In this document: one piece after another, positions 31,314-50,700 of the stretch
Position numbering within the stretch: the stretch's first letter is position 1
Layout of the letters: the number at the start of each line of letters is the position of its first letter
Source of the DNA: Tardiphaga alba
GTDB taxonomy: Bacteria; Pseudomonadota; Alphaproteobacteria; Rhizobiales; Xanthobacteraceae
Length of the DNA: 64,000 nt
Reading direction: 5' to 3'
NCBI RefSeq assembly: GCF_018279705.1
Contig: NZ_CP036498.1
Coordinates: forward strand, 3,737,001 to 3,801,000
Notes under the pieces: generated by a model
The model's database searches: none
The model's input: only the letters and a program-made list of their open reading frames with translations
What the model was told of the DNA's origin: nothing
Program-made: the position numbers and the translations under genes

Positions 31314-31589
31314 ATGGTAGCGAAAGCATTGCAGGTCGAACTGACCCTTGAACAGCAAGAACTGCTGCAGCGTCACCTCGATAATGGCGAATATGAAAGC
31401 CCGAGCGATGTGATCGGCGACGCCTTACACGCTCTGGACGAGCGGAACAAAGCTTTCGACCACTTTCTACGCCGCGAGGTCGAAGCGGCGTTCGCCAGCA
31501 AGGCGCCATCCGTGCCGATCGATGAGGCCTTCAGGCGCGCACGCGCCGCGATAGCGAGCCAAGCAAAGGCCGCGAAGCGTGACACATGA
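31314..31589 (+). CDS. ParD-like antitoxin
   Basis: A 91-residue protein with an N-terminal ribbon-helix-helix (LQVELTLEQQELLQRHLDNG, then EYESPSDVIGDALHALDE). The C-terminus is basic and probably wraps the toxin. It fits type II ParD-like antitoxins, which repress their own promoter and neutralise the toxin. The stop codon overlaps the downstream toxin gene by 11 bases, as is usual for such pairs. Confidence 0.85.
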   Translation: MVAKALQVELTLEQQELLQRHLDNGEYESPSDVIGDALHALDERNKAFDHFLRREVEAAFASKAPSVPIDEAFRRARAAIASQAKAAKRDT

Positions 31590-31887
31590 CGTCATATTTC
31601 TCGACAAAGCGAGCAATGACCTGACGTCATTGTCAGTCTACATCGGTAGCCAAGCTGGCGAAGCGATCGCCAGCCGCTATCTCGACCGACTTTACGCAGC
31701 CTGCATGGCCTTGGCCCATTTTCCCGAGCGCGGCACGAGGCGCGACGATATTCGTCCCAACCTTCGCACGATTGGCTTCGAACGGCGGGCAACGATCATT
31801 TTTCAAGTCACAGACACGCAGGTGCAGATTGTCACGATCGCCTATGGTGGACGAGACTTCGAGACCGAGCTACGCGAACAAGAATAG
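31579..31887 (+). CDS. ParE/RelE-superfamily toxin
   Basis: A 102-residue toxin of the ParE group. It has the typical strand-helix layout: HDVIFLDKASNDLTSLSVYI, an LYAACMALAHFPERGTRRDD segment, RTIGFERRATIIFQV, and a C-terminal IVTIAYGGRDFE. ParE proteins poison gyrase, while RelE relatives cleave mRNA. The PERGTRRDD segment favours ParE, but the target is inferred. It is translated with the antitoxin by an 11-base overlap. Confidence 0.85.
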   Translation: MTHDVIFLDKASNDLTSLSVYIGSQAGEAIASRYLDRLYAACMALAHFPERGTRRDDIRPNLRTIGFERRATIIFQVTDTQVQIVTIAYGGRDFETELREQE

Positions 31888-31925: not shown

Positions 31926-32570
31926 TCACCCCTTCGGACAAGCTGCCCCCGCATCCGCCCACGCCTTGATCAGTTCACCGAACTGTTTTTGCGTGCCCGG
32001 CGCCGGGGTGCGGTTGCCGCCGGGCTTCCAGCCCCAGCCGACCAGCTCATCCTCGGCCATGTGGTGCACGAGCGCAGCCATGTCCTTGCCGCCGTTGCGC
32101 TCCTTGTCCTTGATCTGCGCGCAGATCTGACCAAGCGTCTTGCCCTGCCAGGCCATCTCGATCGGCGCCAGCGACCACTTCGCATTGCCCGGCACATTAG
32201 CGGCGTCAAAATTTTCTTCGTGGTGACAGGTCGTGCAGGCGAGACCGCCAGCCGCGCCCATGCCGCCCTCGCCGCGCACCACCAGCGGGATGTGCGGACG
32301 CATGCGATCGGTCTGGGTTGGACGATCGCCGGCCGGATGGCAGTTCAAACAGCGCGGCGACTGGATCACCTTGCCGGCCTCATTGAACAGCGCGACCGCG
32401 CGCTCGTTCTTGTTCTTGATCTTGGCAAAAGCCGAGACCGGCTGCAGCGTTTTCGGATTGCTGACCGCAGCATCGGCTTCGTTTGTGCCGAACTGCGCAA
32501 CGGACAGCGCGCCAGCCGACAGCCCACCGGCGACCAGCGCCAGCATTGCATACTTCACCAGTTTGTTCAT
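31926..32570 (-). CDS. Di-haem c-type cytochrome of an isoquinoline-1-oxidoreductase-like enzyme
   Basis: A 214-residue secreted protein with a signal peptide (KLVKYAMLALVAGGLSAGAL). It has two haem-binding CxxCH motifs, CLNCH (about residue 94) and CTTCH (about residue 130). It overlaps the end of the upstream Mo-subunit gene by ATGA, so it is probably the electron acceptor of that periplasmic molybdenum hydroxylase, which has no FAD subunit. Histidine pairs in the C-terminal half could be further ligands. Confidence 0.8.
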   Translation of the reverse strand: MNKLVKYAMLALVAGGLSAGALSVAQFGTNEADAAVSNPKTLQPVSAFAKIKNKNERAVALFNEAGKVIQSPRCLNCHPAGDRPTQTDRMRPHIPLVVRGEGGMGAAGGLACTTCHHEENFDAANVPGNAKWSLAPIEMAWQGKTLGQICAQIKDKERNGGKDMAALVHHMAEDELVGWGWKPGGNRTPAPGTQKQFGELIKAWADAGAACPKG

Positions 32571-34732
32571 GCCGAGGCTCCGGGTACGATGGGCAGTTGT
32601 CGCGGTCGTCCGAGGCCGAGCTTGGCCATGGCATTGGCAACGGCCGGCCCGAGCGGCGGCACGCCGGGCTCACCGACGCCCGAAGGTTTTTCGGTCGACT
32701 TCACGATCACCACCTCGACCTCCGGCATCTCGTTAATTCGCAGCGAGCGGTAGGTGTCGAAATTGCCGGACACTGGCGCGCCGGCATCGAGCGTCTGCTC
32801 GGCATAGAGGATGTGGCCGAGGCCAAACCCGATGCCGCCTTCCATCTGCGCACGGATGATGTCAGGATTGACGGCGACACCACAATCCACGGCACACCAG
32901 ACCTTGTGTACTTTTGGCCCATCCTCGGTCATCGACAGTTCGACCACCTGCGCGACAAAAGTTTTAAAACTCTCGACCACGGCAACGCCGCGGGCGCGGC
33001 CTTCCGGCACCTTGTAGTTCTTCCAGTCGGCAAGTTCGGCGACGGCTTTCAGCACGCCGGCATGACGCGGCTTCTTGCCGAGCAGTTCGAGCCGGCCTTC
33101 CACCGGATCCTTGCCGGCAGCTTCCAGCAACTCATCGACAAAGGCCTCGACCACGTAGCCGGTATGGGTGTGGCCCACCGAGCGCCACCACAACACCGGA
33201 ACGCCAACATCGACCTGATGCATGTCGCAACGGAAATTCGCGACTTCGTAGGGGATCTCGTTCGAGCCTTCATAGGAGGTCGGATCGAGGCCGTCCTTGA
33301 ACATGATCTGTTCGAAGAACGAGCCCTTCATGATCGACTGTGAAACGATGGTGTCACTCCAGGCCTCGATCTTTCCGTCGCGCACCGCGCCACGCATGCG
33401 GTGAATGGCATAGGGCCGATAATAGCCACCACGCATATCGTCTTCGCGAGTCCAGACCAGCTTGATGCCCTTGCCCGGCCCGATCGCCTTGGCGACTTCA
33501 GCCAGTTCGGCAGCCTGATGCGTGGTCTGTTGCGCGCGGCGACCGAAGCTGCCGCCGGCAAGGATCACATCGATCTTCACTTTCTCGATGGGCAGACCGA
33601 GCACCTTCGAGATCGCCTGATGGTCCGGCGTTGGGAACTGGCAGCCATATTTCGCGTAAGCCGTGTCACCGTCCCATTTGAGGTACGCGTTCAGCGGCTC
33701 CATCGCGGCGTGGGCGAGATAGGGGAAGACATATTCGACTTCGACGACACGGCCGCCCTTGGCCATGGATTCCTCGAACTTGCCTTCAGCCTTGACCAGC
33801 TTGCCCTGCGTTTTCGACAGCGTGCGGAATTGTTGCAGCAATTCCGCGCTGCCACGTTTCTCGGCCTTGCTGTCATCCCAGGTGATCTTCAGCGCCTCGC
33901 GGCCCGTCTTCGCCGCCCAGAAGCCTTTGGCGTAGACTGCCACGCCGGTCGGCACCTGCTTGACATCGACCACACCCGCAACAGCTTTCGCTGCCGTCGC
34001 ATCGAACGACTTCACCTTGCCGCCGAATTTCGGCGAGCGCGCCACGACCACCGTGAGCATGTCGGGCTCGTTGATATCGAGCGTGAAGAATGCCTTGCCA
34101 TTGCTCTTGTCGGCACTGTCGAGGCGCTTTACCACGCCTTCCTTGCCAATGAGCTTGAAGTTCGCCGGGTCCTTCAGCTTCGGATCGGCCGGCACCGGCA
34201 TGGCCATCGCCTTTTCGGCGAACTCACCGAACCGACCTTCCTTGTCCGATCCATGTTTGATCACGCCCTTCTCGACGGTGATCTCCCCAGCGGGCACCTG
34301 CCACGCCTCGGCAGCGGCAGCGACCAGCATTTCCCGAGCGGCCGCCCCGACCTGGCGCATCTGGACGTAGGAATTCGCAATAGCGGTGGAGCCGCCAGTG
34401 CCCTGCATGCCGAAAGCGAGATTCTTGTAGAGGACCGGATTCGACGGCGCATGGTCGGCGCGCATCTGCGACCAGTCGGCATCGAGCTCTTCGGCGACAA
34501 GCGTCGCCATGCCGGTGAACGGCCCCTGCCCGAACTCAATGCCCTTGCACAGCACCGTGACGGTGTTGTCAGGCTTGATGATCAAAAACGTATTCGGCGC
34601 GATATTGACCTTCGGCGGTGCTGCGGCCTGCGCAAACAGTTTGTCGCCGCGCGCCACATAGGCGCCGATGACGAGGCCTGCACCGGCCTTGAGCAGCGTG
34701 CGACGCGAGAGCTTGGTGTCGTGAACAGTCAT
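32567..34732 (-). CDS. Molybdenum-binding subunit of an isoquinoline-1-oxidoreductase/aldehyde-oxidase-type enzyme, copy 1
   Basis: A 721-residue protein of the xanthine-oxidase superfamily, beta-subunit type. A twin-arginine signal SRRTLLKAGAGLVIGAY at the N-terminus predicts folded export to the periplasm. The molybdopterin-loop motif GGSFGRR and the catalytic glutamate motif GVGEPGVPPLG near the C-terminus are both present, so the enzyme should be active. It forms an operon with the 2Fe-2S gene (3 bases upstream) and the cytochrome (overlapping). The substrate, an N-heterocycle or aldehyde, is not deducible. Confidence 0.88.
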   Translation of the reverse strand: MTVHDTKLSRRTLLKAGAGLVIGAYVARGDKLFAQAAAPPKVNIAPNTFLIIKPDNTVTVLCKGIEFGQGPFTGMATLVAEELDADWSQMRADHAPSNPVLYKNLAFGMQGTGGSTAIANSYVQMRQVGAAAREMLVAAAAEAWQVPAGEITVEKGVIKHGSDKEGRFGEFAEKAMAMPVPADPKLKDPANFKLIGKEGVVKRLDSADKSNGKAFFTLDINEPDMLTVVVARSPKFGGKVKSFDATAAKAVAGVVDVKQVPTGVAVYAKGFWAAKTGREALKITWDDSKAEKRGSAELLQQFRTLSKTQGKLVKAEGKFEESMAKGGRVVEVEYVFPYLAHAAMEPLNAYLKWDGDTAYAKYGCQFPTPDHQAISKVLGLPIEKVKIDVILAGGSFGRRAQQTTHQAAELAEVAKAIGPGKGIKLVWTREDDMRGGYYRPYAIHRMRGAVRDGKIEAWSDTIVSQSIMKGSFFEQIMFKDGLDPTSYEGSNEIPYEVANFRCDMHQVDVGVPVLWWRSVGHTHTGYVVEAFVDELLEAAGKDPVEGRLELLGKKPRHAGVLKAVAELADWKNYKVPEGRARGVAVVESFKTFVAQVVELSMTEDGPKVHKVWCAVDCGVAVNPDIIRAQMEGGIGFGLGHILYAEQTLDAGAPVSGNFDTYRSLRINEMPEVEVVIVKSTEKPSGVGEPGVPPLGPAVANAMAKLGLGRPRQLPIVPGASA

Positions 34733-34735
34733 GGC

Positions 34736-35200
34736 TCAGCCCTCCAGCGTTTTCGCGGCGCTATGGATCGCGGCGCGGATGCGGACATAGGTGGCACAGC
34801 GGCAGATATTGCCGTTCATCGCCAAGTCGATGTCTTCATCAGTGGGCTTGGGATTGAGGCCGAGCAGCGCAGCTGCGCTCATGACCTGGCCGGACTGGCA
34901 GTAGCCGCATTGCGGCACATCGTGGGCGACCCATGCGGCCTGCACTGCCTTGGCTTCCTTGCTGGTCACCCCTTCGATGGTTGTGACCTCGCTTGAGCCG
35001 ACAGCCGAGACCGGCATCGAGCAGGAGCGCACGGGTTGGCCATCGAGATAGACCGTGCAGGCACCGCATTGCGCGACGCCGCAGCCATATTTGGTGCCGG
35101 TCAGCCCGGCGCCGTCTCGGATAGCCCAAAGGAGCGGGGTATCGGGGGCGACGTCGATCTGACGCGACTCCCCATTGATCTTGAGGGTGAACGCAGCCAT
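34736..35200 (-). CDS. 2Fe-2S subunit of molybdenum hydroxylase, copy 1
   Basis: A 154-residue alpha-type subunit with two [2Fe-2S] clusters. The plant-ferredoxin-type Cys set is [21 protein letters not shown] (split: CGVAQCGAC and SC). The second set, in the four-helix domain, is CGYCQSGQ and NICRCATY. It pairs with the Mo subunit encoded 3 bases downstream. It has no Tat signal of its own, so it is probably exported as a complex with that subunit. Confidence 0.92.
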
Positions 35201-35218
35201 CGCTGTTGTCCTTGTCGT

Positions 35219-35238
35219 CGAATGTACGCCTACATTCG
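35219..35238. promoter_or_regulatory. Palindrome upstream of the first molybdenum hydroxylase operon
   Basis: CGAATGTA-CGCC-TACATTCG: perfect 8-bp arms with a 4-base spacer, 18 bases before the 2Fe-2S start codon. Another half-like ATTCGA lies 17 bases further on (GCATTCGACAATT). A regulator-binding site is likely, but the regulator is not known. Confidence 0.55.
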
Positions 35239-35367
35239 ATTGCTTCTAAAACGCATTCGACAATTACAGCCGCAGTGCGGGATGGCCTACTCAATTATTT
35301 TTGTACCGCGCGGGAACGAAAGTCTGTTGCCAACGTTTAGCGGGGCTTTTCTGACCTTCCCGGCGAT

Positions 35368-36150
35368 CTAGGGACGGATTGCCGGCGTCTCGACCGCCAG
35401 ACCATTGGCGCGAGACGCGAGATAGAGTTGCAGATTGATCAACTCCTCTGAGTCGTTGGCATAAGGCTGCGCGCGCACGCCGGTCATGCAATTGCGGAGA
35501 CGGCGCTTGAGCGATCCGAGACTTTGCCACTCGAGCCGATAGAGCGGATAACCCGTGGGATGCGCCTGGGTGATGGACGAACCGGCCAGCTGCCGATCCC
35601 AGTTATCGTCATGGCAGTTGCTGCAGGCGAGATTAAGTTGCCCCTGCCGGCGCGTGAACAGGTCGCGCCCCTTGGCGACGAAGTCCGCAACCCGCGGATC
35701 ATTGCCCGCTTCGATCGGCAGCCCGCGAGACTGGCGTCCGATCAAGGCCGTCAACGCCAGCAGTTCACGGCTGTCATCGGCAAGCGGCGCCTCATCCTGG
35801 TGACGTGTGCGGCAAAGATTGATTCGCTGTTCGAGATCGACCGGCTGCTTCAACACCTCGTCGAAGGCCGGATATTTTGCGCTGACGCCGCGCATGGCAC
35901 CGATGTCGCCATGGCAATCCGTGCAGGACTTCTCTGACGGACTGCTCTTGGCCTTCCACAGTGCATAGCCATCCAGCACCCACAACATGCCGGGATTGGA
36001 CGTGTCGTCGTCCTGCATGGCCCGTGTTTCCGGCGCCATGAAAGACGATCCGGATCTGCGCTGGTCAGGCGCGATCTCGGCAGCGTCACTGGATAGCGGC
36101 ATCGCCAGCCACACCAGCAGAAAAGCAATGATCGCACGCGCGGAGATCAT
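35368..36150 (-). CDS. soxA: Sulfur oxidation c-type cytochrome SoxA (di-haem type)
   Basis: With SoxX it forms the cytochrome that attaches thiosulfate to the SoxY cysteine. The product is 260 residues with a signal peptide (ISARAIIAFLLVWLAM). Haem motifs are CTDCH and CSNCH. A lone Cys in RINLCRTRH fits an axial ligand, and RNCMTGVRAQPY carries the catalytic Cys and the conserved Arg/Pro/Tyr. The ATG at 36150 was chosen because it overlaps the soxZ stop (ATGA) and gives a clean signal peptide. Confidence 0.92.
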   Translation of the reverse strand: MISARAIIAFLLVWLAMPLSSDAAEIAPDQRRSGSSFMAPETRAMQDDDTSNPGMLWVLDGYALWKAKSSPSEKSCTDCHGDIGAMRGVSAKYPAFDEVLKQPVDLEQRINLCRTRHQDEAPLADDSRELLALTALIGRQSRGLPIEAGNDPRVADFVAKGRDLFTRRQGQLNLACSNCHDDNWDRQLAGSSITQAHPTGYPLYRLEWQSLGSLKRRLRNCMTGVRAQPYANDSEELINLQLYLASRANGLAVETPAIRP

Positions 36151-36467
36151 GAAACAGTGATGTTCGCCGAAGCGGTTTCCTGGAAACCACGATCGCCGAT
36201 CCATTTGAATTCGAACGTGCCACTCTCGGTGGCCATGGTGAAGAACGAAATGAACGGATTGGCCGACGAGGCAGGAAACAGATCGGCGCGAAACACCTCG
36301 ACACCATCATAGCGGCAGGTGAAGCTGGTGATGATGTTGCGCGGAATGATTTCGCCGGTCTCGGTGTGGCGGTAGCCCGTCTCCATGACGTGCGACATCA
36401 GCGCCTTGATCTCGATGACGTCTCCGCGCTTCGCGGTCGCCGGCACATTGACCAATGCGGCCGCCAT
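36147..36467 (-). CDS. soxZ: Sulfur carrier complex subunit SoxZ
   Basis: A 106-residue immunoglobulin-like protein that pairs with SoxY. The segments IEIKALMSHVMETGYR and FEFKWIGDRGF are family landmarks. The start at 36467 overlaps the soxY stop (TGATG), and the stop overlaps the soxA start (ATGA). Translation of Y, Z and A is therefore linked. Confidence 0.94.
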   Translation of the reverse strand: MAAALVNVPATAKRGDVIEIKALMSHVMETGYRHTETGEIIPRNIITSFTCRYDGVEVFRADLFPASSANPFISFFTMATESGTFEFKWIGDRGFQETASANITVS

Positions 36468-36952
36468 CAGCTCGCCTCCTCGGTGCAAGCCGCGAGCGTC
36501 ACCACGACATCCGCAGTGGCCGACCAGAACGAACCGTCCGACAGTTTCGCGATAGCCGTCAACGTCTGCGTATCGGCGAGCCGGATACGCGTCGAGACCT
36601 GAGCGCGCCCCGCGCGCGGACCGATATAGAAGTTGCCGACATTCGGCTGCGGATTCTTCTCATTGAAAACATGGATGCTGACCACATGCTCGGCCTCGGT
36701 CATCGGGCTCGCCACCGATACCGTGAGCGGAACGGTGTTGCCGTTCTCCACGAGCGGCGGCACGTCGAGCTTCACCTTTCCGCTGCGAACAACCGCACCT
36801 TTGACGACATCGCGGATGGCCGCCTTCATCATGTCGGGCGTCGCCTGCGCCGGGCGGTGACCGACTAGGGCCACCACGGCGCCGGCACCAAGGGCCAACA
36901 GCCGACGGCGATCCGCATCGTCGAGTTTCTGTATCGCTGCTGTCTGCGTCAT
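36467..36952 (-). CDS. soxY: Sulfur carrier protein SoxY, with an atypical C-terminus
   Basis: A 161-residue carrier. The Tat-type signal is RRRLLALGAGAVVALV, and the Ig-like domain contains VHVFNEKNPQPNVGNFYIGP. In studied SoxY proteins the substrate-carrying cysteine lies in a C-terminal GGCGG arm. Here the end reads VVVTLAACTEEAS, so the cysteine is kept, but the glycines around it are replaced and five residues follow it. It is coupled to soxX by an ATGA overlap. Confidence 0.9.
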   Translation of the reverse strand: MTQTAAIQKLDDADRRRLLALGAGAVVALVGHRPAQATPDMMKAAIRDVVKGAVVRSGKVKLDVPPLVENGNTVPLTVSVASPMTEAEHVVSIHVFNEKNPQPNVGNFYIGPRAGRAQVSTRIRLADTQTLTAIAKLSDGSFWSATADVVVTLAACTEEAS

Positions 36953-37407
36953 GGGTCTTTCAGTGTCTCGAGATAGGCCACCACATCCTCGATCTGCTCT
37001 GCCGACAGGATCGGCTTGTCACGCCAGTTCGCACCGACGCGCTCAAGACCTTCGGTCCGGTAATAAGACGGCATGATCGTCGCCGTATTGAGGCGCGAAG
37101 CATCGACCAGTCGCAGCCGCAACTGCCCCTGCGACCACCGCATGCCGGTGCCGGTCAGATCCGGAGCCAGATTTCCTTGGAATTTCTGCTCGGCGAAAGG
37201 GCCACTATGGCACAGCAGGCAGGTGTTCTGCCGGGCGACAACGATCGCACGCCCACGCGCAACGTCGCCCGAACGTCCCGTCAGCGACGCTGGAATGGCA
37301 TCGTCGATGACATCGTATGGACGCAACGCCTCGCTCATCGCCGTACCGGCCAGCAAGAAAGTGACAGCACCCACTCCCATTGCGATGTCACGCTTGCGCC
37401 TAGCCAA
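36949..37407 (-). CDS. soxX: Sulfur oxidation c-type cytochrome SoxX
   Basis: A mono-haem cytochrome, the partner of SoxA. The haem site is CLLCHSGPF, and a Met in TIMPSYY may be the sixth ligand. I place the start at the TTG at 37407. This gives a normal signal peptide with a basic head (ARRKRDIAMGVGAVTFLLAG), has AGGCGAAG at SD distance, and overlaps the soxF stop. The alternative ATG at 37380 lacks the basic residues and any SD. Length is 152 residues with the TTG start. Confidence 0.88.
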   Translation of the reverse strand: MARRKRDIAMGVGAVTFLLAGTAMSEALRPYDVIDDAIPASLTGRSGDVARGRAIVVARQNTCLLCHSGPFAEQKFQGNLAPDLTGTGMRWSQGQLRLRLVDASRLNTATIMPSYYRTEGLERVGANWRDKPILSAEQIEDVVAYLETLKDP

Positions 37408-38680
37408 AAACTTCGCCTGTGATGGTGTCGAACCAGGAGCGCGCATAGACGGCTTCCTGATTGCGGAACGTGAGCGTCGCTTCGAGCGGGCTGGTGCCGC
37501 CCGCGCCCTCGACATCGGTCAGTAAGCCGTTTTTCGGCTGATAGACGCCGGCGATGGAAATCCCGTAATCCGGCGCAACAAGACTGTAGCAGGTGTTGAT
37601 CAACTTGGGTGCAGCCGGCGCGGCACCCGCCAGCAATGACACCACCGCGCTCGCGCAAGCCTTTGCCTGTGCATTGGCGGAGAAAGCCGATTTCGGCATG
37701 CCGCCGGCGATACAGGCGTCGCCAATGACATGGATGTTCGGAACTTGCTTCGACTCGAACGTGACGGGATCAATCGGGCACCAGCCGGAGCGATCGGTCA
37801 CGCCCGCAATGGCGGCGATCTGCCCTGCCCGCTGTGGCGGCAGCACATTGGCGACAGCCGCCTTGTGCTTGTCGAATTCGGTGACGAGCGTATTGGTCGC
37901 GGCATCCACCGACGTGACCTTGCCGCCATGCGACAGCCCGACCCATTCGACGAGGCCGGGATAAAGCTCCTGCCATGCCTGCAGGAACAGCCGCTGCTTC
38001 GAGAAGGCATCCTTGGAATCGAGAATGATCAGCTTGGAGCGCGGCTTCTTCGTCTTCAGATAGTGCCCGATCAGGCTGGCGCGCTCATAGGGTCCGGGCG
38101 GGCAGCGATAGGGATTGGCCGGCACCGAGATCACGACCAGTCCGCCATCGTCCATAGCTTCCAACTGGCGTCGCAGCAGCAGCGTCTGCTCTCCAGCCTT
38201 CCAGGCATGCGGCATGCGCGCGGCCGCCGCTTCGTCATAGCCCTGCAAGGCGTCGAAGCGCAGGTCGATCCCCGGCGACAGAACCAGACGGTCATATGCG
38301 AGCGTTGTACCGTCCGCGAGCCCGACGCTGCGTGCCGCAGCGTCGATCTTGGTGGCCGCCTTTGTCGCCATCTTCACGCCGCCGGCCACGACCTTGTCAT
38401 AGCCGAACTGCTGCGCCTCGATGGCACGATCCCCGGCAATGACTTCATTGCTCATCGGGCATGCCGTGAACGTGCGATTGGGCTCGACCAATGTGACGTC
38501 GAGTTTGCCATCGAGAGCATGCAGCGTCCGTGCACAGCTGACGCCACCGAAGCCGCCGCCGATCACCACCACACGAGGGCGCGTCTGTGCGATCGCCGGC
38601 CCTGTCACCATCAACGCCGCCGCGGCAGCGGCCGTCTGACCAAGGAACGTCCGTCGGGATGTCAGATGAGGTTGGGTCAT
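37400..38680 (-). CDS. soxF: Flavocytochrome c sulfide dehydrogenase flavoprotein (SoxF/FccB)
   Basis: A 426-residue FAD protein with a Tat signal (TSRRTFLGQTAAAAAALM). It has the dinucleotide motif VVVIGGGFGGVSCART. CPMSNEVIAG matches the segment where FAD is covalently bound to Cys in FccB. CPPGPYERA and the later NTCYSLV would supply the redox disulfide. It oxidises sulfide or a sulfur intermediate and passes electrons to the small cytochrome encoded just upstream. Confidence 0.9.
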   Translation of the reverse strand: MTQPHLTSRRTFLGQTAAAAAALMVTGPAIAQTRPRVVVIGGGFGGVSCARTLHALDGKLDVTLVEPNRTFTACPMSNEVIAGDRAIEAQQFGYDKVVAGGVKMATKAATKIDAAARSVGLADGTTLAYDRLVLSPGIDLRFDALQGYDEAAAARMPHAWKAGEQTLLLRRQLEAMDDGGLVVISVPANPYRCPPGPYERASLIGHYLKTKKPRSKLIILDSKDAFSKQRLFLQAWQELYPGLVEWVGLSHGGKVTSVDAATNTLVTEFDKHKAAVANVLPPQRAGQIAAIAGVTDRSGWCPIDPVTFESKQVPNIHVIGDACIAGGMPKSAFSANAQAKACASAVVSLLAGAAPAAPKLINTCYSLVAPDYGISIAGVYQPKNGLLTDVEGAGGTSPLEATLTFRNQEAVYARSWFDTITGEVFG

Positions 38681-38689
38681 CGGCGCACG

Positions 38690-39013
38690 CTACTTCTGTT
38701 CCGCGAGCCAGGCCGCGATCGGACGAAGCTCATCATCGGAAAAACCCTTGGCGATCCGGCCCATCACTGTGGCAGGCCTTGTACCGTTACGGAAGCCAGT
38801 CATTGCCTCCGTGATCTCGCCGGCATCGCGCCCATGGATGGGTGGGATTGCCGACGATGCCGCGCCTTGCACCGCATGGCAGCCTGAGCATGAAGCCGCG
38901 CCGGGCGGTGGCGCGGAAGCCGCCATCGCCGGGCCAATAGAAATGACGGCCAGCGTGGCAGCCAGCGCTCTCACATCAAGATATCCAGCCCGATCTGCGA
39001 AACGCCTTGTCAT
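38690..39013 (-). CDS. soxE: Small c-type cytochrome (SoxE/FccA-like)
   Basis: A 107-residue exported mono-haem cytochrome with a signal peptide and the haem motif CSGCHAVQG. The C-terminal part (MGRIAKGFSDDELRPIAAWLAEQK) is typical of class I cytochromes and of FccA-type partners. The start at 39013 lies 7 bases after the preceding Mo-subunit stop, and soxF follows 9 bases downstream. It is probably the electron acceptor of SoxF, and possibly also of the upstream molybdenum enzyme. Confidence 0.82.
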   Translation of the reverse strand: MTRRFADRAGYLDVRALAATLAVISIGPAMAASAPPPGAASCSGCHAVQGAASSAIPPIHGRDAGEITEAMTGFRNGTRPATVMGRIAKGFSDDELRPIAAWLAEQK

Positions 39014-39020
39014 AGCATCC

Positions 39021-41216
39021 CTATGCGAAAGTGATGTCGTGGCTCTTGAGCGGCACAGAACGGATCCGCTTGCCCGTCGCTGCGAAGAACGCATTGAGCA
39101 CCGCCGGCGCCGCGACGCAGATCGTGGGTTCGCCGACACCGCCCCAGAAACCGCCTGACGGCATCAGGATCGATTCCACTTTCGGCATCTCCTTCAGCGT
39201 CATCGACTGATAGGTGTCAAAATTCTCCTGCTCGATACGGCCGCCCTGCACCGTGCATTCGCCGTAGAACAGCGCCGACAGGCCATAGACGAAGGAGCCT
39301 GCGATCTGGCGATCAATCTGCCATGGATTCACCGCATGGCCGGGATCGGTGGCGGCGACGATGCGATGGATCTTGATCTTGTTGCCATCGGTCACCGAGA
39401 TTTCGGTCGCTGCCGCCACATAGCTGCCAAAGCCCATATGCTGGCAGATGCCGCGGAACACGCCCTGCGGCGCCGGCGTCGTCCAGCCGATTTTGTCGGC
39501 CACCGCATTCAGCACCGCGAGATGCTTGGGATGCTTCGACATAAGCTTGCGGCGGAATTCCACTGGGTCCTGTCCGACCGAATGCGCCAGCTCATCCATG
39601 AAGCATTCGAGATAGATCGCATTCTGATTTACATTGACGCCGCGCCAGAAGCCGGGCGGCACATGCGGGTTGCGCATCGAATGGTCGATCAGGAGATTGG
39701 GGATCGTGTAGCCGATTGCCGCTTCGCCTGACGTGTTGAGCCCCTGGAACACCACAGGGTCCATGCCGTTCTGCATGCCCTCGGGCCGCACGCTGGCCAG
39801 GATCGACTGGCCCGAGATGCGCAGATGCAGGCCTATCAGGTTGTTGTCGGCATCGAAGGCGCCGACCAGTTTGCTCTGCGTGATCGGGTGATAGCGACCA
39901 TGCAACATGTCCTCTTCGCGCGTCCACATCAGCTTGATCGGGACGCCGGGCATCTGCTTGGCGATGGCCACGGCCTGCCGGACATAATCGGTCATGCCGC
40001 GACGGCCGAAGCCGCCACCGGGCATGATCTTGTAGACCTCGCATTTGTCGCTCGGCAGGCCCGACGCTTCGACAACTGCAGCGAACACCGCCTCGCCGTT
40101 CTGCGTGCCGGTCCAGACCTCGCATTTGTCCGCTGTATAAAGCGCCGTGGCGTTCATCGGCTCCATGGTGGCGTGGTTCTGGAACGGATATGCGTAGACC
40201 GCCTCCACCTTCTTCGCCGCACCGGCAATCGCCGCTTTCGCGTCGCCGTTTTTGTTGGCGATGAAGGCGGGCTGTGCGGGATCGAGCCCCTCTTCCAGCC
40301 ATTTGGCGATGGAGGCGCTGGTGACATTGGCGTTCGGGCCCTCGTCCCACACCACCGGCAGCGCCTCGAGCGCCGTCTTGGCGCGCCACCAGGTATCGGC
40401 CACGACGGCCACCGCCGTATCGCCAACCCGGACAACCTTCTTGACGCCCTTCATGCCGGTGATCTTGCTGTCGTCAAAGCTCTTCAGCTTGCCGCCGAAT
40501 ACGGGACAATCCTTGATCGCGGCATTCAGCATGCCGGGCATCGTGACATCGGCGCCGTAGATCATCTTGCCATTGACCTTCTCGACGGTGTCGAGACGTC
40601 GCAGCGGCTTGCCGGCAATCTTCCAGTCCTTCGGGTCCTTGAGCGGAACGTCTTTCGGAGGCTCAAGCTTGCCCGCAGCGTCAGCTACCTTGCCGAAGGT
40701 CACTGTCCGGCCTGACGGCGTATGGGTGATCACGCTGTTCGCGGCCGTGCATTCCGCCGCCGGCACGGCCCACTCGTTGGCCGCTGCCTGGATCAGCATC
40801 ATCCGCGCTGCGGCGCCGCCCTTGCGGACATAGTCATGCGAGGTGCGGATGCCGCGGCTGCCGCCGGTGGAGAAGTCGCCCCATACGCGCTTGCGCGCAA
40901 TGCTCTGGCCCGGCGTCGGATATTCGGTCGTGACTTTCGACCAATCGCATTCGAGTTCTTCGGCCACGAGCTGCGCGAGACCGGTCAACGTGCCCTGCCC
41001 CATCTCCGAGCGCGCGATACGCACCACCACCGTATCGTCGGGCTTGATCACCACCCAGGCATTCACCTCGGGCGGAATATCCGCGGCGTGAGCTGCCACG
41101 GGGCCGCCGAGGTGAAGATCGAAACCGAGCGCCAGCCCGCTGCCGACGGCGGCGGTGCCCAGCACGAAAGCGCGACGGTTAAGGACCGGAGACTTCGAGA
41201 GAGAACCATGAGCCAT
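39021..41216 (-). CDS. Molybdenum-binding subunit of an isoquinoline-1-oxidoreductase/aldehyde-oxidase-type enzyme, copy 2
   Basis: A 731-residue paralogue of the protein encoded at 32567-34732. It has a Tat signal (LNRRAFVLGTAAVGSGLAL), the pterin-loop motif GGGFGRR and the catalytic-Glu motif GVGEPTICVAAP. The start at 41216 has GGGAGG at good distance. It is the second gene of an operon that continues without a real gap into soxE-soxF-soxXYZA. That linkage suggests its electrons enter the same periplasmic cytochrome pool. Substrate unknown. Confidence 0.88.
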   Translation of the reverse strand: MAHGSLSKSPVLNRRAFVLGTAAVGSGLALGFDLHLGGPVAAHAADIPPEVNAWVVIKPDDTVVVRIARSEMGQGTLTGLAQLVAEELECDWSKVTTEYPTPGQSIARKRVWGDFSTGGSRGIRTSHDYVRKGGAAARMMLIQAAANEWAVPAAECTAANSVITHTPSGRTVTFGKVADAAGKLEPPKDVPLKDPKDWKIAGKPLRRLDTVEKVNGKMIYGADVTMPGMLNAAIKDCPVFGGKLKSFDDSKITGMKGVKKVVRVGDTAVAVVADTWWRAKTALEALPVVWDEGPNANVTSASIAKWLEEGLDPAQPAFIANKNGDAKAAIAGAAKKVEAVYAYPFQNHATMEPMNATALYTADKCEVWTGTQNGEAVFAAVVEASGLPSDKCEVYKIMPGGGFGRRGMTDYVRQAVAIAKQMPGVPIKLMWTREEDMLHGRYHPITQSKLVGAFDADNNLIGLHLRISGQSILASVRPEGMQNGMDPVVFQGLNTSGEAAIGYTIPNLLIDHSMRNPHVPPGFWRGVNVNQNAIYLECFMDELAHSVGQDPVEFRRKLMSKHPKHLAVLNAVADKIGWTTPAPQGVFRGICQHMGFGSYVAAATEISVTDGNKIKIHRIVAATDPGHAVNPWQIDRQIAGSFVYGLSALFYGECTVQGGRIEQENFDTYQSMTLKEMPKVESILMPSGGFWGGVGEPTICVAAPAVLNAFFAATGKRIRSVPLKSHDITFA

Positions 41217-41227
41217 GATCGCCTCCC

Positions 41228-41677
41228 TCAAACGCCGGCTGCGGAGTGGATGGCTTCACGCACCTGCTGGAACGTGCCGCAACGGCAGATATTGGTCACC
41301 GCATGATCGATGTCCTCATCGGTGGGCTGCGGGATCATCTCCAACAGCGCTGCGACGGCCATGATCATGCCGCTCTGGCAATAACCGCATTGCGGCACGT
41401 CGTGGTCGATCCAGGCCTGCTGCACCTTGTGCATCACACCATTGGCAGCGAGCCCTTCAATGGTGGTGATCTGCTTCCCCACCGCTTCGCTGAGCGGCAT
41501 GCTGCAGGAGCGAACTTGCTGGCCATCCACGTGAACGGTACAGGCGCCGCATTGCGCAACACCGCAGCCATATTTGGTCCCGGTCAGGCCGGCATTTTCG
41601 CGGATCGCCCACAGCAGCGGCGTATCCGGCTCGGCATCGATATCGTAGGTCCGGCCGTTGATCGTGAGGTTCGCCAT
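41228..41677 (-). CDS. 2Fe-2S subunit of molybdenum hydroxylase, copy 2
   Basis: A 149-residue small subunit with both cluster sets: CGVAQCGAC...RSC and CGYCQSG...NICRCGTF. It matches copy 1 (34736-35200) throughout. The ATG at 41677 ([13 protein letters not shown]) matches the family start. It is the first gene of the operon carrying the second Mo enzyme and the sox genes. Confidence 0.92.
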
Positions 41678-42938: not shown

Positions 42939-45900
42939 TTACCACGCGTAGCGGACGACGCCCCTGCCGGCATAGCTGCGGGTGGTGTCGGAGAATTCCC
43001 CGTCAAAGGTCGCAGCGACCGCCCAGCCATTGCCCCATTTCACTTCCGCCGACGCCGAGGTGAGCGCAGCGTTGCGCGAGGCCTGTGCGCCATTCACGGT
43101 GAAGCCGGCACCGGGCAGCGACTGGAAGGTCGCTGCGATCGACCGATCGGTGTTGAAGTCATGCACCCATGCCGCGCGTCCGCGCAGCGTCAGCAGCGCA
43201 TCATTCACCGCGAAGGATTTATCGGTGCGGAGACCAAGCTCGGTGCGCGTATCCGTCACCGTCTTGCCTGCATAGGTCAGGCCGAAGGTCGTGGCGCCTG
43301 TCGCCGAAGTCTCGGCGTAAGCGGGCAGATCGAATGCCGTCACCTGAACAGCTGCATAGGGTGTGATGCCGACGCCACCGAGCGTTGGCAACAGCCAGCG
43401 ATTGCCGACCTCAACGCGCCCGGAATACGCATTGGCGTTGAACGCAGCTTGCAGACGATCCGTCACGCCGGCCGACACAAGACGGTCCGTCGTGATGCTC
43501 TGCCAGCCATAGGCTGCAGCCGCAGTGACATAGGCCGAACCTTCGCTGTGACGCACGAAAGCGCCAGCCTGCATCAGGTCCGAGCGACCGGAGCCGCCAT
43601 TCGCCACCGAGAAGTTGGTGCCGCCGCCCGCCATCGCGAAACCGGCAACAGTCGCTGGCGAGAACCAGTAGTCAGCACCCACAGCCGCGCCGTAGATATT
43701 CGACGTCGTGTAGTTCGATCCGAGCGCAGCATTGCCATCCGTCGTGCGCGATCCGCCGAAGCCCGCGGCCCATACGTTCCAGCGCTCTTCGAACGCCTTC
43801 GGCGGCGCCTTAGTGAACATCGCAAATGCGTCAATCGGCTTCGATGGCGCGGCATAGCCCATCGCATTCGCTGTATCGCCTCGCCCCGCCGTGAACGGAT
43901 CGGTCATGACGCCGATGAACTGGTTCATCGCGTCGAACGTCACCTGCTGCGATCCCGTCGCCGTCTCGCCGGAGACTTGCGTCAGGCCATTCGGGCCAAG
44001 CGTGGTGAACGCCGTCGGAATGCCTCCGGTGGTGTTGAAATAGTTCGTCAGCGCATTGCCGACATTCTGCTGGTTGGTGTTGAGGCCGCCGGGAGCGACG
44101 AAACTGAGCGTCAGGTTCAGATAGACATTGTTCGCATCGTAGCTCAGCGCTGAACTGATGGAGGCCGGCATCCCGATATTGACCAGTGCGTCAAAGGTGC
44201 CCGAGCGCCCGCCCGCCGCATTCAGGATCGTATATTGCCGCGCCGTATAGGTCCCTGCAGCGTAGCTGGCACGGACCGTACCGGCGAGCGTCGCGGTGCC
44301 GCTGACATCGGTGCGATCGGCCTGCGTCGGCGAGACCTCGACACTGTAATTCGCGCCCGCGCCGAAAAGGAGATCGCCGGTCACTGCGAGCGTGCCGATG
44401 GAGTTGCCCGGCGCCAACGTGCCGCCCGCCGCGATCGTGGTGTTGCCGAGCGTACCGGTTCCGCCGAGCGTGCCACCATTGTTGACGGTCGTCGCCGAGA
44501 CGATCGCGCCGTTCACCGCCAGCGTGCCGCCATTCACGATCGTCGCGCCGCTATAGGTGTTGTTGCCTGTCAGCGTCATCGTGCCGGTGCCGGTCTTGGT
44601 CAGGGCCAGAGTGGCGCCGCCATTCGACAGCAGGCCGGAAAACGTCGTCGATGAATTGTCGCCGCCCGTGATCAGCGTGCCGGTGGCGCCGATGCCGCTC
44701 GCATTGACCGTCCCCGCCCCAGCCAGCGAGCCGATCGTCTGGCTGACATTGCCGACATCGAGAAACGAGTTCGCGGTGACGGTCACTGCTGAATTGGCGC
44801 TGAAGGCATTGCTCTGCCGGCCGAGCAGCGCGGCGGCACCGCCGGTCGTCCCGTCACCGATGATGGTCGCCCCGCTATAGGTGTTCACGCCCGACGAATC
44901 GAAAGCGACGGAACCGACGACACCGTTGCGGAGGATCGTCAGCGCACCGCCCGGACCATTTCCGTCGGTGATCGCCCCCGTCAGGATCACTTCTCCGCCC
45001 GCAGCATCGATGCTGCCGCCAGCGGTGTTGATGCGGAACGTGTTCGTCAGCGTCAGGGGGGTGATGCCGCTGCCCTGCTGCAATGTGCCACCATTGAGCG
45101 TCACCGCGCCGGAGCCGAGCGCGCTGGCGTTCCCGGCGCTGATCGCTCCAAGAGTGATCGTCGTGCCGCCGCTATAGTTGTTGGCCCCGTCAATGTCAGC
45201 GTGCCGGTGCCGTTCTGGATCACTGCGCCGTTGCCGGTGATGGCACTGCCCAGCGTCTGCGCCGTCGATTGATTGAAGGTCAGACTCCCATCTACAGCGA
45301 TATTGCCGTTGATCACCGAGCCGGTCTGCAGCGTCAGCGTATTGGCGCCACCGGTGAAGGTGATCGCATTGGCCTGGGTCAGGCCGTCACCACCCATCCC
45401 GCCGGTGATCGTGCCGGAATTGATGACCGTCAGACCCGCGCCGACGACACCAGCGCCGCCGACACCATTCGCGCCGGCGCGGCCGGGAATACCACCTGTT
45501 CCGGCAGCGCCCGCAGCGCCGCCACTGCCGCCTTCGATGGTACCTTGATTGTTGAGAACCATACCAGCTGACATCGACAGACCGATGCCGCCATCGCCAC
45601 CATTACCGCCCATACCGGCCCATCTGGCTCCGGCTCCAAATCCGGAGTTTCCACCTCGACCGCCCGCGCCACCTGCCCCGCCAACCAACCCTCCGGTGTT
45701 CGTAACCAGTCCGCCGCCGGAGGCAATAGCGCCATATCCGCCAGCACCGCCGCCACCGCCGCCACCGGATGTTTCACCGTTGGCATCGCCGCCGTGCCCG
45801 CCAGCACCACCTGAGCCGCCCTGCAAGACACCTGCATTGGTGCCGATCGGGCTGCCTGCTCCATTTCCGTTATATCCGCCGCCGCCGCCGCCGCCGCCGG

Positions 45901-46544: not shown

Positions 46545-47642
46545 ATGACAGCGTGTTTCGCGACAAGCCCGAGAATCCGCATGCCCCCGCCTGACGACCA
46601 GCCTGTAACCTTCATCGATTGCTACACAGCGGAGTTTCCGGAAGGCGATCCCGAGAGCGCAGCGTCCTACGGGCAGATGCTGTCAGCGGTGTTCGACTTC
46701 GATGTGCCGGCCTTCGCACAGTCCACACCATTCTCCGCCCGCTCGGACGTCTATATCCTGCCTGATGTGACACTCTCGCGTGCGCGCAGCGCCGCCGCCC
46801 GCTTCACGCGCACGGCAAGGACCATCGCCGAACGCGGCACCGACCAGATCCTGGTCGTTTGCTACACCAGCGGCTCCTTCACGATGACGACAGCCAGCGA
46901 CACCAAACAGGTTCAGGCCGGCGAACTGGCCTTCATCGACCTGTCGCAGGAAATCACCATCGAGGCGACTGCCGTCGCAAATATCAGCCTCGCTCTGTCA
47001 CGGCGCAAGCTGGAGACGATGGTGCCCTTCATCGATGACGCACACGGCTTCATCCGCGAACCCGGCCCGCTGTCGCGGCTGCTGCTGGACACGATGGAGA
47101 ATATCATGGCCATGGGCCCTGCCATCCCGGTGGTCGATGCGCGCGCCATGGCGAGCGCAACCATCGATCTCGCAGCCGCCTGCCTCGAACCGCTGTCGCG
47201 CCAGCAGGTGGAGACCAAATCCGGCCGCAGCACCGTTTCGCTGGTCGCCATCAAGTCGTTTATCGAACGGCACCTGTCGGATGCCGATCTCAAACCGCAA
47301 ACGCTGATCGACGAGTTCGGCGTCACGCGCTCGACGCTGTACCGGCTATTCGAACCGCTCGGCGGCGTCAGCGCCTATATCACCCAGCGCAAGCTGCACC
47401 GCGCCTTCCGCCTCATCACCGACACGCTGCAGCCAAGGCAGCGCATCTCGCAACTCGCCTTCGATGTCGGCTTCAGCCACCCCTCGGCCTTCACCCGCGC
47501 CTTCAAGGAGTTTTTCGGCCTGTCACCGACGGACGTCCAGATGCTGGCGGGGCAATCGAAGGAACGCGACGTGCAACTATTGGTCTCACCCGATCTGATG
47601 AAATATCTCAGCCCGATCGCCGGCCCGTCCGTCGCCGCTTAA
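46545..47642 (+). CDS. AraC-family transcriptional regulator
   Basis: A 365-residue regulator. The N-terminal part resembles the AraC-binding-like domain of the AraC/XylS type (LVVCYTSGSFTMTTAS...QVQAGELAFIDLSQE). The C-terminal 100 residues contain two helix-turn-helix units: LIDEFGVTRSTLYRLFEPLGGVSAY and ISQLAFDVGFSHPSAFTRAFKEFFGLSPTD (each split here by the reader at about 20). It lies between two autotransporters on the opposite strand, and both have 21-bp-spaced direct repeats, so it probably controls them. The start could also be the ATG at 46581; neither has a strong SD. Confidence 0.88.
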   Translation: MTACFATSPRIRMPPPDDQPVTFIDCYTAEFPEGDPESAASYGQMLSAVFDFDVPAFAQSTPFSARSDVYILPDVTLSRARSAAARFTRTARTIAERGTDQILVVCYTSGSFTMTTASDTKQVQAGELAFIDLSQEITIEATAVANISLALSRRKLETMVPFIDDAHGFIREPGPLSRLLLDTMENIMAMGPAIPVVDARAMASATIDLAAACLEPLSRQQVETKSGRSTVSLVAIKSFIERHLSDADLKPQTLIDEFGVTRSTLYRLFEPLGGVSAYITQRKLHRAFRLITDTLQPRQRISQLAFDVGFSHPSAFTRAFKEFFGLSPTDVQMLAGQSKERDVQLLVSPDLMKYLSPIAGPSVAA

Positions 47643-47707: not shown

Positions 47708-50700
47708 TCACCACGCGTAACGGACGACGCCCTTGCCGGCATAGCTGCGGGTGGTGTCCGAGAACTCGCCGTCAAACGTTGCGGCGACTGCCCAGCCATT
47801 GCTCCACTTCATTTCAGCCGACGCCGAGGTCAGCGCCGCATCGCGCGAGGCCTGCGCGCCGTTCACGGTGAAGCTTGCGCCAGGCAGCGAATGGAAGGTG
47901 GCGGCAATCGCGCGATCGGTGTTGAAGTCATGCACCCAGGCCGCACGCCCGCGCAGCGTCAGCAGCGCATCGTTGACGGCAAAGGACTTGTCGGTGCGCA
48001 GACCAAGCTCGGTGCGCGTATCCGTCACCGTCTTGCCCGCATAGGTCAGACCGAAGGTCGTGGCGCCGTTAGCCGAGGTCTCGGCATATGTCGGCAGATC
48101 GAATGCCGTCACCTGCACGGCCGCATAGGGCGTGACGCCGATGCCACCCAGCGTCGGCAGCAGCCAGCGATTGCCGGCTTCAACACGCCCGGAATAGGCA
48201 TTGGCGTTGAACGCGGCCTGCAGACGATCGGTCACACCTGCAAGCACGAGCCGATCCGTCGTGATGCTTTGCCAGCCATAGGCTGCCGCTGCGGCGACAT
48301 AGGCCGAGCCCTGGCTATGACGAACGAACGCACCGACCTGCACCAGATCGGAGCGACCCGATCCACCATTTGCCACCGAGAAGTTCGTGCCGCCGCCTGC
48401 CATCGAGAAGCCGGCGACAGTCGCCGGCGAGAACCAGTAGTCTGCGCCTACGGCGCTGCCGTAGATGTTCGATGTCGTGTTACTCGATCCGAGCGCAACA
48501 TTGCCATCGGTTGATCGCGATCCGCCGAAGCCCGCCGCCCACACGTTCCAGCGTTCTGCGAACGCCTTCGGCGGCGCTTTTGCGAACATCGCAAACGCAT
48601 TCGTCGGGTTCGATGGCGCTGCATAGCTCATCGCGCTCGCTGAATCCCCCCGCCCCGCCGTGAACGGATCGGTCATGATGCCCAGGAACTGGTTCATCGC
48701 ATCGAAGGCCACCTGCTGCGATCCCGTTGCCGTCTCGCCGGAGACTTGCGTCAGGCCTGCCGCGGTAAGCGATCCGAATGCTGCGGGAATGCCGCCCGTC
48801 GTGTTGAAGTAGTTGGTCAGCGCGTTGCCGACATTCCGCTGGTTGGTGTTCAGCGTTCCGCCGGAAATGCCGAAATCGAGCGCGAGATTGAGATAGGCAT
48901 TGGTCGCATCATAGCTCAGCGCGTTGCTGAAATTTGCCGGCAGGTTGGTGTTGGCGAGCGCCGCGAATGTCCCCTGCACGGCACCGGCCGTCAGGATCGT
49001 GTACTGCTTCTTGATGTTGCTGCCGGATGCGAAGTTCGCACTGACCGTCGCACCGCCAATATTTGCGGGGCCGGTGACGGTGGCGAAGCTTGCGGTCGCG
49101 GGACTGACCTGGACGAGATAGGTCGCGCCAGCTTGCAGCGTGAGCGCACCATTCACCGTCATCGACGTGCCCGCAAGGCCTGATCCCGGCGCAAAGGTGC
49201 CACCGGCATTGACCGTGGTGTCACCGACCGAACCGATGCCGGTCAGCGTGCCGCCGGCAATGATTGCGGGATCTGTGAGCGAACCATTGACCACCAGCGT
49301 GCCGCCATTGACCGTGGTCGGACCTACAAACGTATTGATGCCCGTGATCGTCGTGATGCCACTGGTCGTCGTCAGCGTCGCCCCGCCGGAGATGCTATTG
49401 ATCGTGCCGCCTGTCGATGTAACGAAGCCGGTGAGTTGACCATTGGTCAGCGTGCCACCTGCCAGTGCAACCGCAAAGATCGTCTGCGCGACGCCGCCGA
49501 GATCGAGTGTGCCGCCGGTGTTCACCGTGGTGGCACTTGCTGCGCTGAATGCATTTGCAGCGCCGCCCGTCAGCGTGCCGCCATCGATGGTGGTCGTGCC
49601 CGTATAGCTGTTGCCCCCGGACAATGTGAGTGTGCCGGCGCCCAGTTTGGTCAGGTTTCCGCCCGCGGAAGCGAGACCGCTGGCGAAGCTGACATTCTGG
49701 CCGTTGGTGTCGATGCTGTAAGCTTGATTGGCTGCGCTAGAGAAACGGCTCGAATAGTCGATTTGGTTGGCAGCGCTATATCGCAGCGTGCCGCCAGTGA
49801 AGGACAGCGTGCCGGCCGTTCCGAGCGCATCGGCACTGCCGACATTGAGCGTGCCCTGCTGAAACGTCGTGCCGCCCGTATAGGTGTTGGTCCCGGTCAG
49901 CGTCAGCGTGCCCGCACCGTGCTTGGTCAGCCCGCCGTCGATCGCGGCATCGCCGCCGATCGTCGAGTGAAGCAAGGATTGCGCGATGGTGACGTCAAAT
50001 CCGCTGGTGTCGATCACCGCGCCGCCGTCACGGACATTGGCGACATTCAGTCCTTGCATGAACGTCGTCGATGAGGCTGCTGCTTGCAGCGTTCCCCCAT
50101 TCAGATTGATCGTCGATAGCCCGGCATTCGTCGTGACACGTTCGGCAGAGATCGTGCCTCCATCGAGATTGACGGTACCGGTCGCACCGGCGCCGATCTG
50201 AAGCGTCGTCGATTCAACCAATCCGGTACCGCCGACTGTCAGCGTGGCGCTGCCGCTCTTGCCCAGATAAAAATCTCCCCTAACGGTGCCCCTGAAATCG
50301 TATAACTGCCACTCGCAACCGTTCCGATATTTATCCCGCCAGTGGAAATGAATGTGCCACCGGTTTGGTTGACACTACCGTTGGCGAGTAAGGCGATGAC
50401 CACCCGCCCTGCCGAGAAGGTGCCGCCCGACAGGTTCAGGGTGCCTGCTCCAGTGTTGCTGCCGATATAGACGTTCCCACTGGCATTGGCAGCGTCCAGA
50501 GTGCCGCCGGACTGGTTCACCGTCCCACTGATATTCATACTTGAGAAGCTGTTGATGCCGCTGGTCACGGCGTATGGGGAGTTGCTTCCATTGACGATCA
50601 GCTCCTGCGCGCCGACCCGACCAGCGCCCAAAATGGCGATAACCGGCACAGCGACCAGCGCCGTCGAAGCCAGCAGCACGCGTCGCAACAGATCCGTCGC

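Follow-up and report, generated by a model that had tools for sequence, protein, structure and literature searches.

We analyzed a window of 64,000 nucleotides of the Tardiphaga alba genome (contig NZ_CP036498.1, positions 3,737,001 to 3,801,000; the host genome is 5.86 Mb in one contig), in which a set of sox genes adjoins genes for a molybdenum (Mo) hydroxylase. Eight genes, running on the minus strand from 41677 to 35368 of the window in the order FeS-Mo-soxE-soxF-soxX-soxY-soxZ-soxA, make up what we call the Sox-Mo unit:

41228..41677, minus strand: FeS_B, 2Fe-2S subunit of the Mo hydroxylase, from its open reading frame (ORF), with eight cysteines (Cys) kept
39021..41216, minus strand: MoB, xanthine-oxidase-family Mo large subunit (PF02738 and PF20256; twin-arginine (Tat) leader; RGVN at the active-site Arg; GVGEP)
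38690..39013, minus strand: SoxE-like mono-haem cytochrome c (CSGCH; PF13442 at 24.2 bits, below the cut-off of 27)
37400..38680, minus strand: SoxF / FccB flavoprotein of flavocytochrome c sulfide dehydrogenase (PF21706, PF09242; 5n1t at 3.1e-149)
36949..37446, minus strand: SoxX cytochrome c, start codon uncertain (TIGR04485 at 73.6 bits, cut-off 61, on the longer frame 36949-37515)
36467..36952, minus strand: SoxY variant with carrier arm LAACTEEAS (TIGR04487 at 224.7 bits, cut-off 172)
36147..36467, minus strand: SoxZ (TIGR04490 at 85.5 bits, cut-off 76; PF08770)
35368..36150, minus strand: SoxA, di-haem, haem-ligand Cys kept (TIGR04484 at 216.5 bits, cut-off 110)

The gaps within this unit are 11 bases from the Fe-S stop to the Mo start, 7 between Mo and soxE and 9 between soxE and soxF; soxF and soxX overlap, and the soxX/soxY, soxY/soxZ and soxZ/soxA pairs share 4, 1 and 4 bases. 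ORF and family scans thus found the named Sox and Mo genes, on the minus strand and with a compact first operon, where a preliminary description of the sequence had put them. They also agreed with its account of both Mo subunits in the window, which have MoCoBD domains, a Tat leader and a GVGEP catalytic-Glu motif, and whose flanking genes are not FAD (flavin adenine dinucleotide) subunits. Its statement that the window lacks soxB and soxCD stands for SoxB and SoxC, for which queries from the genome's own canonical locus match nothing in the window; SoxD was not searched by itself. The SoxE label is assigned from position and a single CxxCH alone, its Pfam score being under the cut-off. SoxXA scores over the cut-offs of TIGR04484 and TIGR04485, and the flavocytochrome c sulfide dehydrogenase flavoprotein has its domains and redox Cys pair.

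MoB has the features by which we assign the xanthine-oxidase family (MoCoBD domains, the catalytic Glu motif and a partner with eight Cys), and its closest solved relative by sequence is 8gy3_C (1e-77). Scored against NCBIfam equivalogs that name a substrate class, it reaches 170.4 bits at best, with a cut-off of 780. A carbon monoxide (CO) dehydrogenase-like Mo site was considered and set aside: the active-site Arg of aerobic CO dehydrogenase has a Cys beside it, where MoB has Gly, and TIGR02416 gives 51.2 bits with a cut-off of 991.

Beyond what the preliminary description had recorded, the carrier protein of the unit has a C-terminus of AACTEEAS as against the GGCGG of canonical SoxY. By the score listed above it is a member of TIGR04487 (SoxY-related AACIE arm), and it falls under the cut-off of TIGR04488 (true GGCGG SoxY; 107.9 vs. 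125 bits). Against TIGR04557, the quinoprotein-associated SoxYZ-like carrier, SoxY of the window reaches 60.6 bits and SoxZ 28.8, with a cut-off of 140. The canonical version is found elsewhere in the same genome, at C1:1.62-1.63 Mb, where SoxX, SoxA, a GGCGG SoxY, SoxZ, SoxB and SoxC all score over their cut-offs and a cytochrome c sits at the expected SoxD place. As this set lies 2.15 Mb away, the window's unit is a paralogue; it also answers the preliminary description's suggestion to look for soxB and soxCD elsewhere in the genome, as far as SoxB and SoxC are concerned. We additionally observed a third SoxYZ set (L010:9989-11787, at G000:C1:1.02 Mb), a fused quinoprotein-associated carrier (TIGR04557) adjoining a SoxH-like zinc hydrolase. 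A single genome therefore holds three SoxYZ carriers with different partners.

Next, we surveyed the neighborhoods of related soxY genes (loci are numbered with L and genomes with G). TIGR04487 scored over its cut-off in 31 of 150 relatives searched, own genome counted, and in 22 of 387 genomes sampled from the class; two of these 22 also belong to the set of 150. A scan of a genome collection returned 571 stretches encoding a SoxY relative; the best 80 were kept, and 73 of these best 80 named SoxY matches are Bradyrhizobium or Tardiphaga. A SoxY profile search over all proteins gave, among the 8000 candidates listed, one further protein named SoxY-related AACIE arm protein. Each fetched neighborhood extended roughly 9-10 kb to either side, or less if the contig ended sooner, and some loci duplicate DNA (e.g., L043 = L100). 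The resulting AC-armed set comprises 154 loci, window included: 152 whose SoxY ends in xAC plus at most eight residues, and L224 and L225 (GAC). In the latter two Mo-linked proteins, GAC is followed by 36 and 22 residues, which sets the carrier Cys back from the C-terminus.

Using this set, we identified a xanthine-oxidase-family Mo gene in 144 of the 154 AC-armed loci (140 with MoB at at least 350 bits, L224 and L225, L227 with a distant Mo gene at 220 bits, and L103 with a fragment at a contig end). Nine of the other ten end at most 1.7 kb upstream of soxY, and the tenth is L208. A genome-wide check covered L208 (genome G224) and the contig-cut G226, and in both MoB lies on another contig. 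At a threshold of 150 bits, neither SoxB nor SoxC was found in any AC-armed locus. The 17 comparison loci, whose SoxY is under the TIGR04487 cut-off or is the genome's own canonical SoxY, comprise 14 with GGCGG, each of which has SoxB or SoxC and no Mo gene; two GGC-armed loci (GGCLT, GGCIT) with neither SoxB/SoxC nor Mo; and L081, which has no readable arm and likewise neither. Across all 16 GGC-armed loci, then, Mo occurs in 0 and SoxB or SoxC in 14. After removal of SoxY copies identical over their last 110 residues, 134 AC-armed loci have Mo and 10 do not, compared with 14 GGC loci with SoxB or SoxC and 2 with neither; two loci of other arm type (L224/L225) and one (L081) complete the count. 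The two arm types, AC and GGC, fall on two sides of one branch of the SoxY tree (SH-aLRT, an approximate likelihood ratio test, 72).

Mo and soxY share a strand in 140 of 141 scored pairs, and the set stays together while its order varies: the Mo gene is inverted in L070, soxF lies downstream of soxA in L210 and L213, and the Fe-S and Mo genes lie downstream of soxA in L227. The usual core consists of FeS, Mo, SoxX, SoxY, SoxZ and SoxA. As exceptions, SoxX was not found in L223 and L228, SoxA is missing from L059, both are missing from L062, and L136, which a contig end truncates, lacks SoxA. SoxEF is optional: in the 141 Mo-linked loci other than the window, SoxF was seen without the small SoxE in 64 (tblastn may overlook so small a protein) and was not seen in 21. 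Of these 21, 18 keep soxX, which adjoins the Mo gene (-15 to 306 bases). The smallest version, FeS-Mo-XYZA, was found in 16 loci (e.g., L264, L268 and L261). Conserved flanking genes gave no clue to the substrate: the top ORF cluster outside the unit occurs in 18 loci and appears by eye to be of low complexity, and the next occurs in 9. Together, these counts support a conserved MoB/Sox linkage as one unit, and the survey that the preliminary description had called for shows the linkage kept across many Alphaproteobacteria and one group outside the class.

The SoxB partner of the classical pathway does not accompany the unit consistently even at genome scale. A genome-wide search of 72 genomes that carry an AC-armed soxY (this genome is not among them) located SoxB in 39, and in the other 33 it was not found; for the 67 of good quality the counts are 36 and 31. 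Of the 50 genomes besides this one that scored over the TIGR04487 cut-off in the two surveys above, 21 gave no SoxB. The Sox-Mo unit thus stands without SoxB in many hosts, and the idea that SoxB acts in trans as a general rule is weakened by the genomes where SoxB was not found. The preliminary description had counted against itself a complete soxB-CD set close by outside the window, with ordinary thiosulfate oxidation, joined with an absence of conserved Mo linkage in other species. A canonical set with SoxX, SoxA, SoxY, SoxZ, SoxB and SoxC exists in this genome; the Mo/sox linkage is nonetheless conserved, and the SoxB counts add to this.

To describe the proteins of the unit, we counted catalytic residues in the AC-armed loci, complete proteins only and near-copies included (145 SoxA rows, 141 different). 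SoxA keeps its haem-ligand Cys and an Arg in 145/145 and the first-haem CxxCH in 144/145 (one gap); canonical SoxA keeps the same Cys and Arg (11/11). The SoxX haem and Met are kept in 148/148, the SoxF redox Cys pair in 120/120, and the SoxE CxxCH in 56/56 of the SoxE found. Among 135 complete proteins from soxY loci, window included, the Fe-S subunit retains the eight Cys for two 2Fe-2S clusters in 134-135, and the Mo GEP motif is present in 134, the exception (L059) being a shorter frame of 663 residues. A twin-Arg pattern is present in 130/135 Mo subunits and 142/142 SoxY.

Our analysis also revealed the breadth of the Mo lineage. A MoB profile search in 397 genomes of the phylum shows a gap between matches of at least 1066 bits and the next at 854. 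Four genomes outside the class (group g471; 1.7-2.1 Mb) carry FeS-Mo-soxX-soxY-soxZ-soxA without soxEF, and all four have SoxB elsewhere. In print, Polynucleobacter shows three SOX clusters (PMC3308952; here and below, papers are cited from excerpts, and what we say of them is limited to those excerpts). In a tree of 77 rows built by a quick method (76 of 146 complete Mo proteins plus MoA, the second Mo large subunit of the window), MoB falls inside a marked (starred) clade of 66 rows, of which 61 have soxY alongside, one has soxXA only and four are without. Two further Mo lineages (L223/L228 and L224/L225) also neighbor SoxYZ, suggesting that the pairing is older than the MoB clade or arose more than once. 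The RGVN motif was tried as a mark of sox linkage and rejected, as six Mo rows without an adjoining soxY have it (L263, L265, L267, L270, L273 and L274) and L214/L215 have GVC; what it marks is the greater part of the Mo clade rather than sox linkage. Separately, two loci (L067:5212-7335 and L071:6357-8495) have an extra Mo subunit between the usual one and soxE, with WRCVN (Arg-Cys) vs. the Arg-Gly of the unit's Mo subunits.

Downstream of soxA lies a second Fe-S/Mo/cytochrome operon (35200-31926):

34736..35200, minus strand: 2Fe-2S subunit, second Mo operon, a neighbor outside the unit (PF01799, PF00111)
32567..34732, minus strand: MoA, Mo large subunit, second operon, a neighbor outside the unit (in 17 of 18 genus genomes)
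31926..32570, minus strand: c-type cytochrome with two CxxCH, second operon, a neighbor outside the unit (ORF; CLNCH and CTTCH)

This operon begins 167 bases past the soxA stop, a gap that makes it look like a separate unit; its cytochrome has no Pfam or NCBIfam match. Nine of the 17 genus genomes with MoA lack a TIGR04487 match over the cut-off, and in all seven relatives with both, MoA lies away from the unit, either on another contig (G001, G002, G010, G015) or 3.7, 0.9 and 0.46 Mb off (G006, G016, G017). Its place beside sox is therefore private among the genomes seen and most likely accidental. The preliminary description had joined Mo hydroxylase and Sox carrier into one system; this stands for the MoB operon and fails for the second Mo operon, which we reject as a member of the Sox system.

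Elsewhere in the window, a ParE-like toxin gene (31579-31887, plus strand) follows a small ORF (31314-31589) that would fit an antitoxin by place and has no Pfam match. The genes of two autotransporter-like proteins, both on the minus strand and both with passenger repeats (42939-45104 and 47708-50221), flank an AraC-type regulator (46545-47642, plus strand).

At the MoB locus the loader and carrier are intact, the hydrolase and SoxCD are absent from the cluster, the carrier arm is changed and a Mo hydroxylase is fixed in their place; the economical reading is that the Mo enzyme handles the load of SoxXA. In the classical cycle, SoxB hydrolyses sulfate off SoxY and SoxCD oxidises the remaining sulfane. 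We propose, with about an even chance of being right, that the eight genes form one periplasmic oxidation unit on the variant SoxYZ carrier, in which the Mo hydroxylase would oxidise a SoxXA-loaded, probably organic sulfur compound in place of SoxB and SoxCD. SoxXA would load the compound by joining it in a disulfide with the AACxE-arm Cys, in the way that its canonical counterpart attaches thiosulfate to the SoxY Cys (PMC5748708). The Mo hydroxylase, with water, would then oxidise the carrier-bound or just-released compound at the position that SoxB and SoxCD hold in the classical cycle. Its pair of 2Fe-2S clusters would relay electrons to c-type cytochromes, be it SoxXA, SoxE or a soluble cytochrome, and in most but not all versions SoxEF would oxidise freed sulfide or persulfide.

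Xanthine-oxidase-family enzymes oxidise carbon in almost all known cases, so thiosulfate would be a less likely substrate than an organosulfur compound whose carbon can be oxidised (a thiol, a thio-aldehyde or a thiol-aldehyde adduct). Thiosulfate oxidation by Bradyrhizobium diazoefficiens requires soxY1 but not soxY2 (PMC5748708), which weakens the thiosulfate reading provided that soxY2 is the AC-armed gene. A more specific and rather doubtful version of our proposal is a carrier-dependent Mo hydroxylase, whose substrate would be disulfide-tethered to a protein arm: SoxXA would fix a thiol from the periplasm to SoxY, whereupon the Mo enzyme would oxidise the carbon beside the sulfur, cutting the C-S bond without oxygen and leaving an aldehyde or acid plus a SoxY persulfide for SoxEF to clear.

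Several points weigh against this proposal. With AC arms all on one side of one branch, much of the linkage count reflects shared descent, making the rearranged gene orders the better evidence for selection. The SoxA Cys and Arg, being the same in canonical SoxA, do not tell thiosulfate from another load. The action of the Mo enzyme on SoxY is itself a proposal from genes alone. Enzymes of the xanthine-oxidase family attack electron-poor carbon, and we know of no precedent for oxidation of saturated carbon next to sulfur by this family. Close MoB relatives occur without soxY alongside (L263, L265, L267, L270, L273); L263 (G204) has FeS-Mo-soxX-soxA open frames without soxYZ, and no SoxY match was found in its whole one-contig genome, so the Mo enzyme probably has no strict need of the carrier. 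Finally, soxY2 of B. diazoefficiens is only presumed to be of the AC-armed kind. G041 has one soxY match at 1.7 kb from soxB and a further one with an AC arm, and the genus group of G041 (g25) also contains G080, for which the Mo protein clusters with those of named Bradyrhizobium; this pattern would fit the presumed identity, short of proof.

Other explanations share parts of this evidence. Possibly, the two systems divide the labor on one organosulfur compound, the Mo hydroxylase taking a free aldehyde while SoxXAYZ and SoxEF take the sulfur, with no mutual action. That 8gy3_C is an aldehyde dehydrogenase large subunit agrees with this, as do the Mo relatives without soxY and a SoxF that by sequence is an ordinary sulfide dehydrogenase flavoprotein. 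The 16 FeS-Mo-XYZA loci speak against it, showing no linked sulfide dehydrogenase or SoxB (the four g471 genomes do have SoxB elsewhere), so that in these smallest loci the sulfur on SoxY needs an exit via the Mo enzyme or an unlinked enzyme. It is unlikely that the pathway is inorganic, with SoxY carrying thiosulfate or sulfide, the Mo enzyme replacing SoxCD and the canonical locus supplying SoxB. This genome's canonical locus does have SoxB and SoxC, SoxB was found in 39 of the 72 genomes, and SoxA has the catalytic residues of its solved and canonical counterparts; against these stand the 33 genomes where SoxB was not found, an arm that differs from GGCGG in every Mo-linked copy, and the dispensability of soxY2 for thiosulfate oxidation, if soxY2 is this gene.

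The xanthine-oxidase family needs a Mo=S ligand, and SoxXA/SoxYZ might serve enzyme upkeep by bringing sulfane sulfur to the exported Mo enzyme and restoring that ligand, or might shield it from thiols. SoxYZ-like carriers also accompany PQQ (pyrroloquinoline quinone) dehydrogenases (TIGR04557; PMC12997753), and three Mo lineages are tied to SoxYZ (the RGVN clade, L223/L228 and L224/L225), as upkeep predicts. We nevertheless consider upkeep quite improbable, given related Mo enzymes without an adjoining soxY (L265, L267, L270, L273) and the occurrence of the window's second Tat-led Mo enzyme in the nine genus genomes without a TIGR04487 match over cut-off. Chance adjacency of genes with unrelated tasks is likely for the second Mo operon; for MoB it is very hard to credit, with a Mo gene in 144 of 154 loci and the other ten explained.

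These findings matter for annotation, in which sox genes are often read as thiosulfate oxidation. The widespread AC-armed SoxY subfamily is tied instead to a carbon-oxidising type of Mo enzyme, and this tie, together with the 33 of 72 genomes in which SoxB was not found, means that soxXYZA genes of this kind should not be read as predicting thiosulfate oxidation. The pairing offers a Mo partner for soxY2-type genes without a role in thiosulfate growth, making their function testable, and points towards a periplasmic oxidation pathway not yet described, which may act on organic sulfur compounds. We found no description of a Sox carrier paired with a xanthine-oxidase-family Mo enzyme in the open-licence literature. 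Already known are the arm variant, named by NCBI curators, second sox loci, which are in print, and divergent SoxY with other partners (PMC11237559).

Among known systems, TIGR04487 includes the window's SoxY, and the family name records only the arm difference. The aldehyde dehydrogenase / isoquinoline 1-oxidoreductase type of 8gy3_C shares with MoB the domain plan, a Tat leader on the Mo subunit, a separate 2Fe-2S subunit and the active-site Arg and Glu, but it has R-S-V-S at that Arg where MoB has R-G-V-N-x-N, and the MoB operon includes Sox genes. In SAR324 (PMC4782131), SoxYZ flanks a flavocytochrome c sulfide dehydrogenase with no other sox genes alongside; the same genomes encode an isoquinoline 1-oxidoreductase, though it is not tied to SoxYZ there. 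Divergent SoxY of lucinid symbionts and free-living bacteria (PMC11237559) resemble the window's in their arm variants, other neighbors and proposed organosulfur or one-carbon (C1) roles; the neighbors named in that paper are dimethyl sulfoxide (DMSO) reductase, tetrathionate reductase, and PQQ alcohol, methanol and formate dehydrogenases, and its main text lacks the terms "xanthine", "aldehyde" and "molybd". The quinoprotein-associated SoxYZ-like carrier with its SoxH-like hydrolase (TIGR04557, TIGR04559; L010) is likewise tied, by family name and PMC12997753, to periplasmic carbon-compound dehydrogenases, but differs from the window's unit in its fused SoxYZ, PQQ enzymes and metallohydrolase. 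Canonical Sox, as in the genome's own locus at C1:1.62 Mb, has in common with the unit SoxXA, SoxYZ, a SoxY Cys near the C-terminus and the SoxA haem-ligand Cys, whereas the unit has no adjoining SoxB or SoxC, carries an AACxE arm rather than GGCGG, and holds a Mo hydroxylase in their place.

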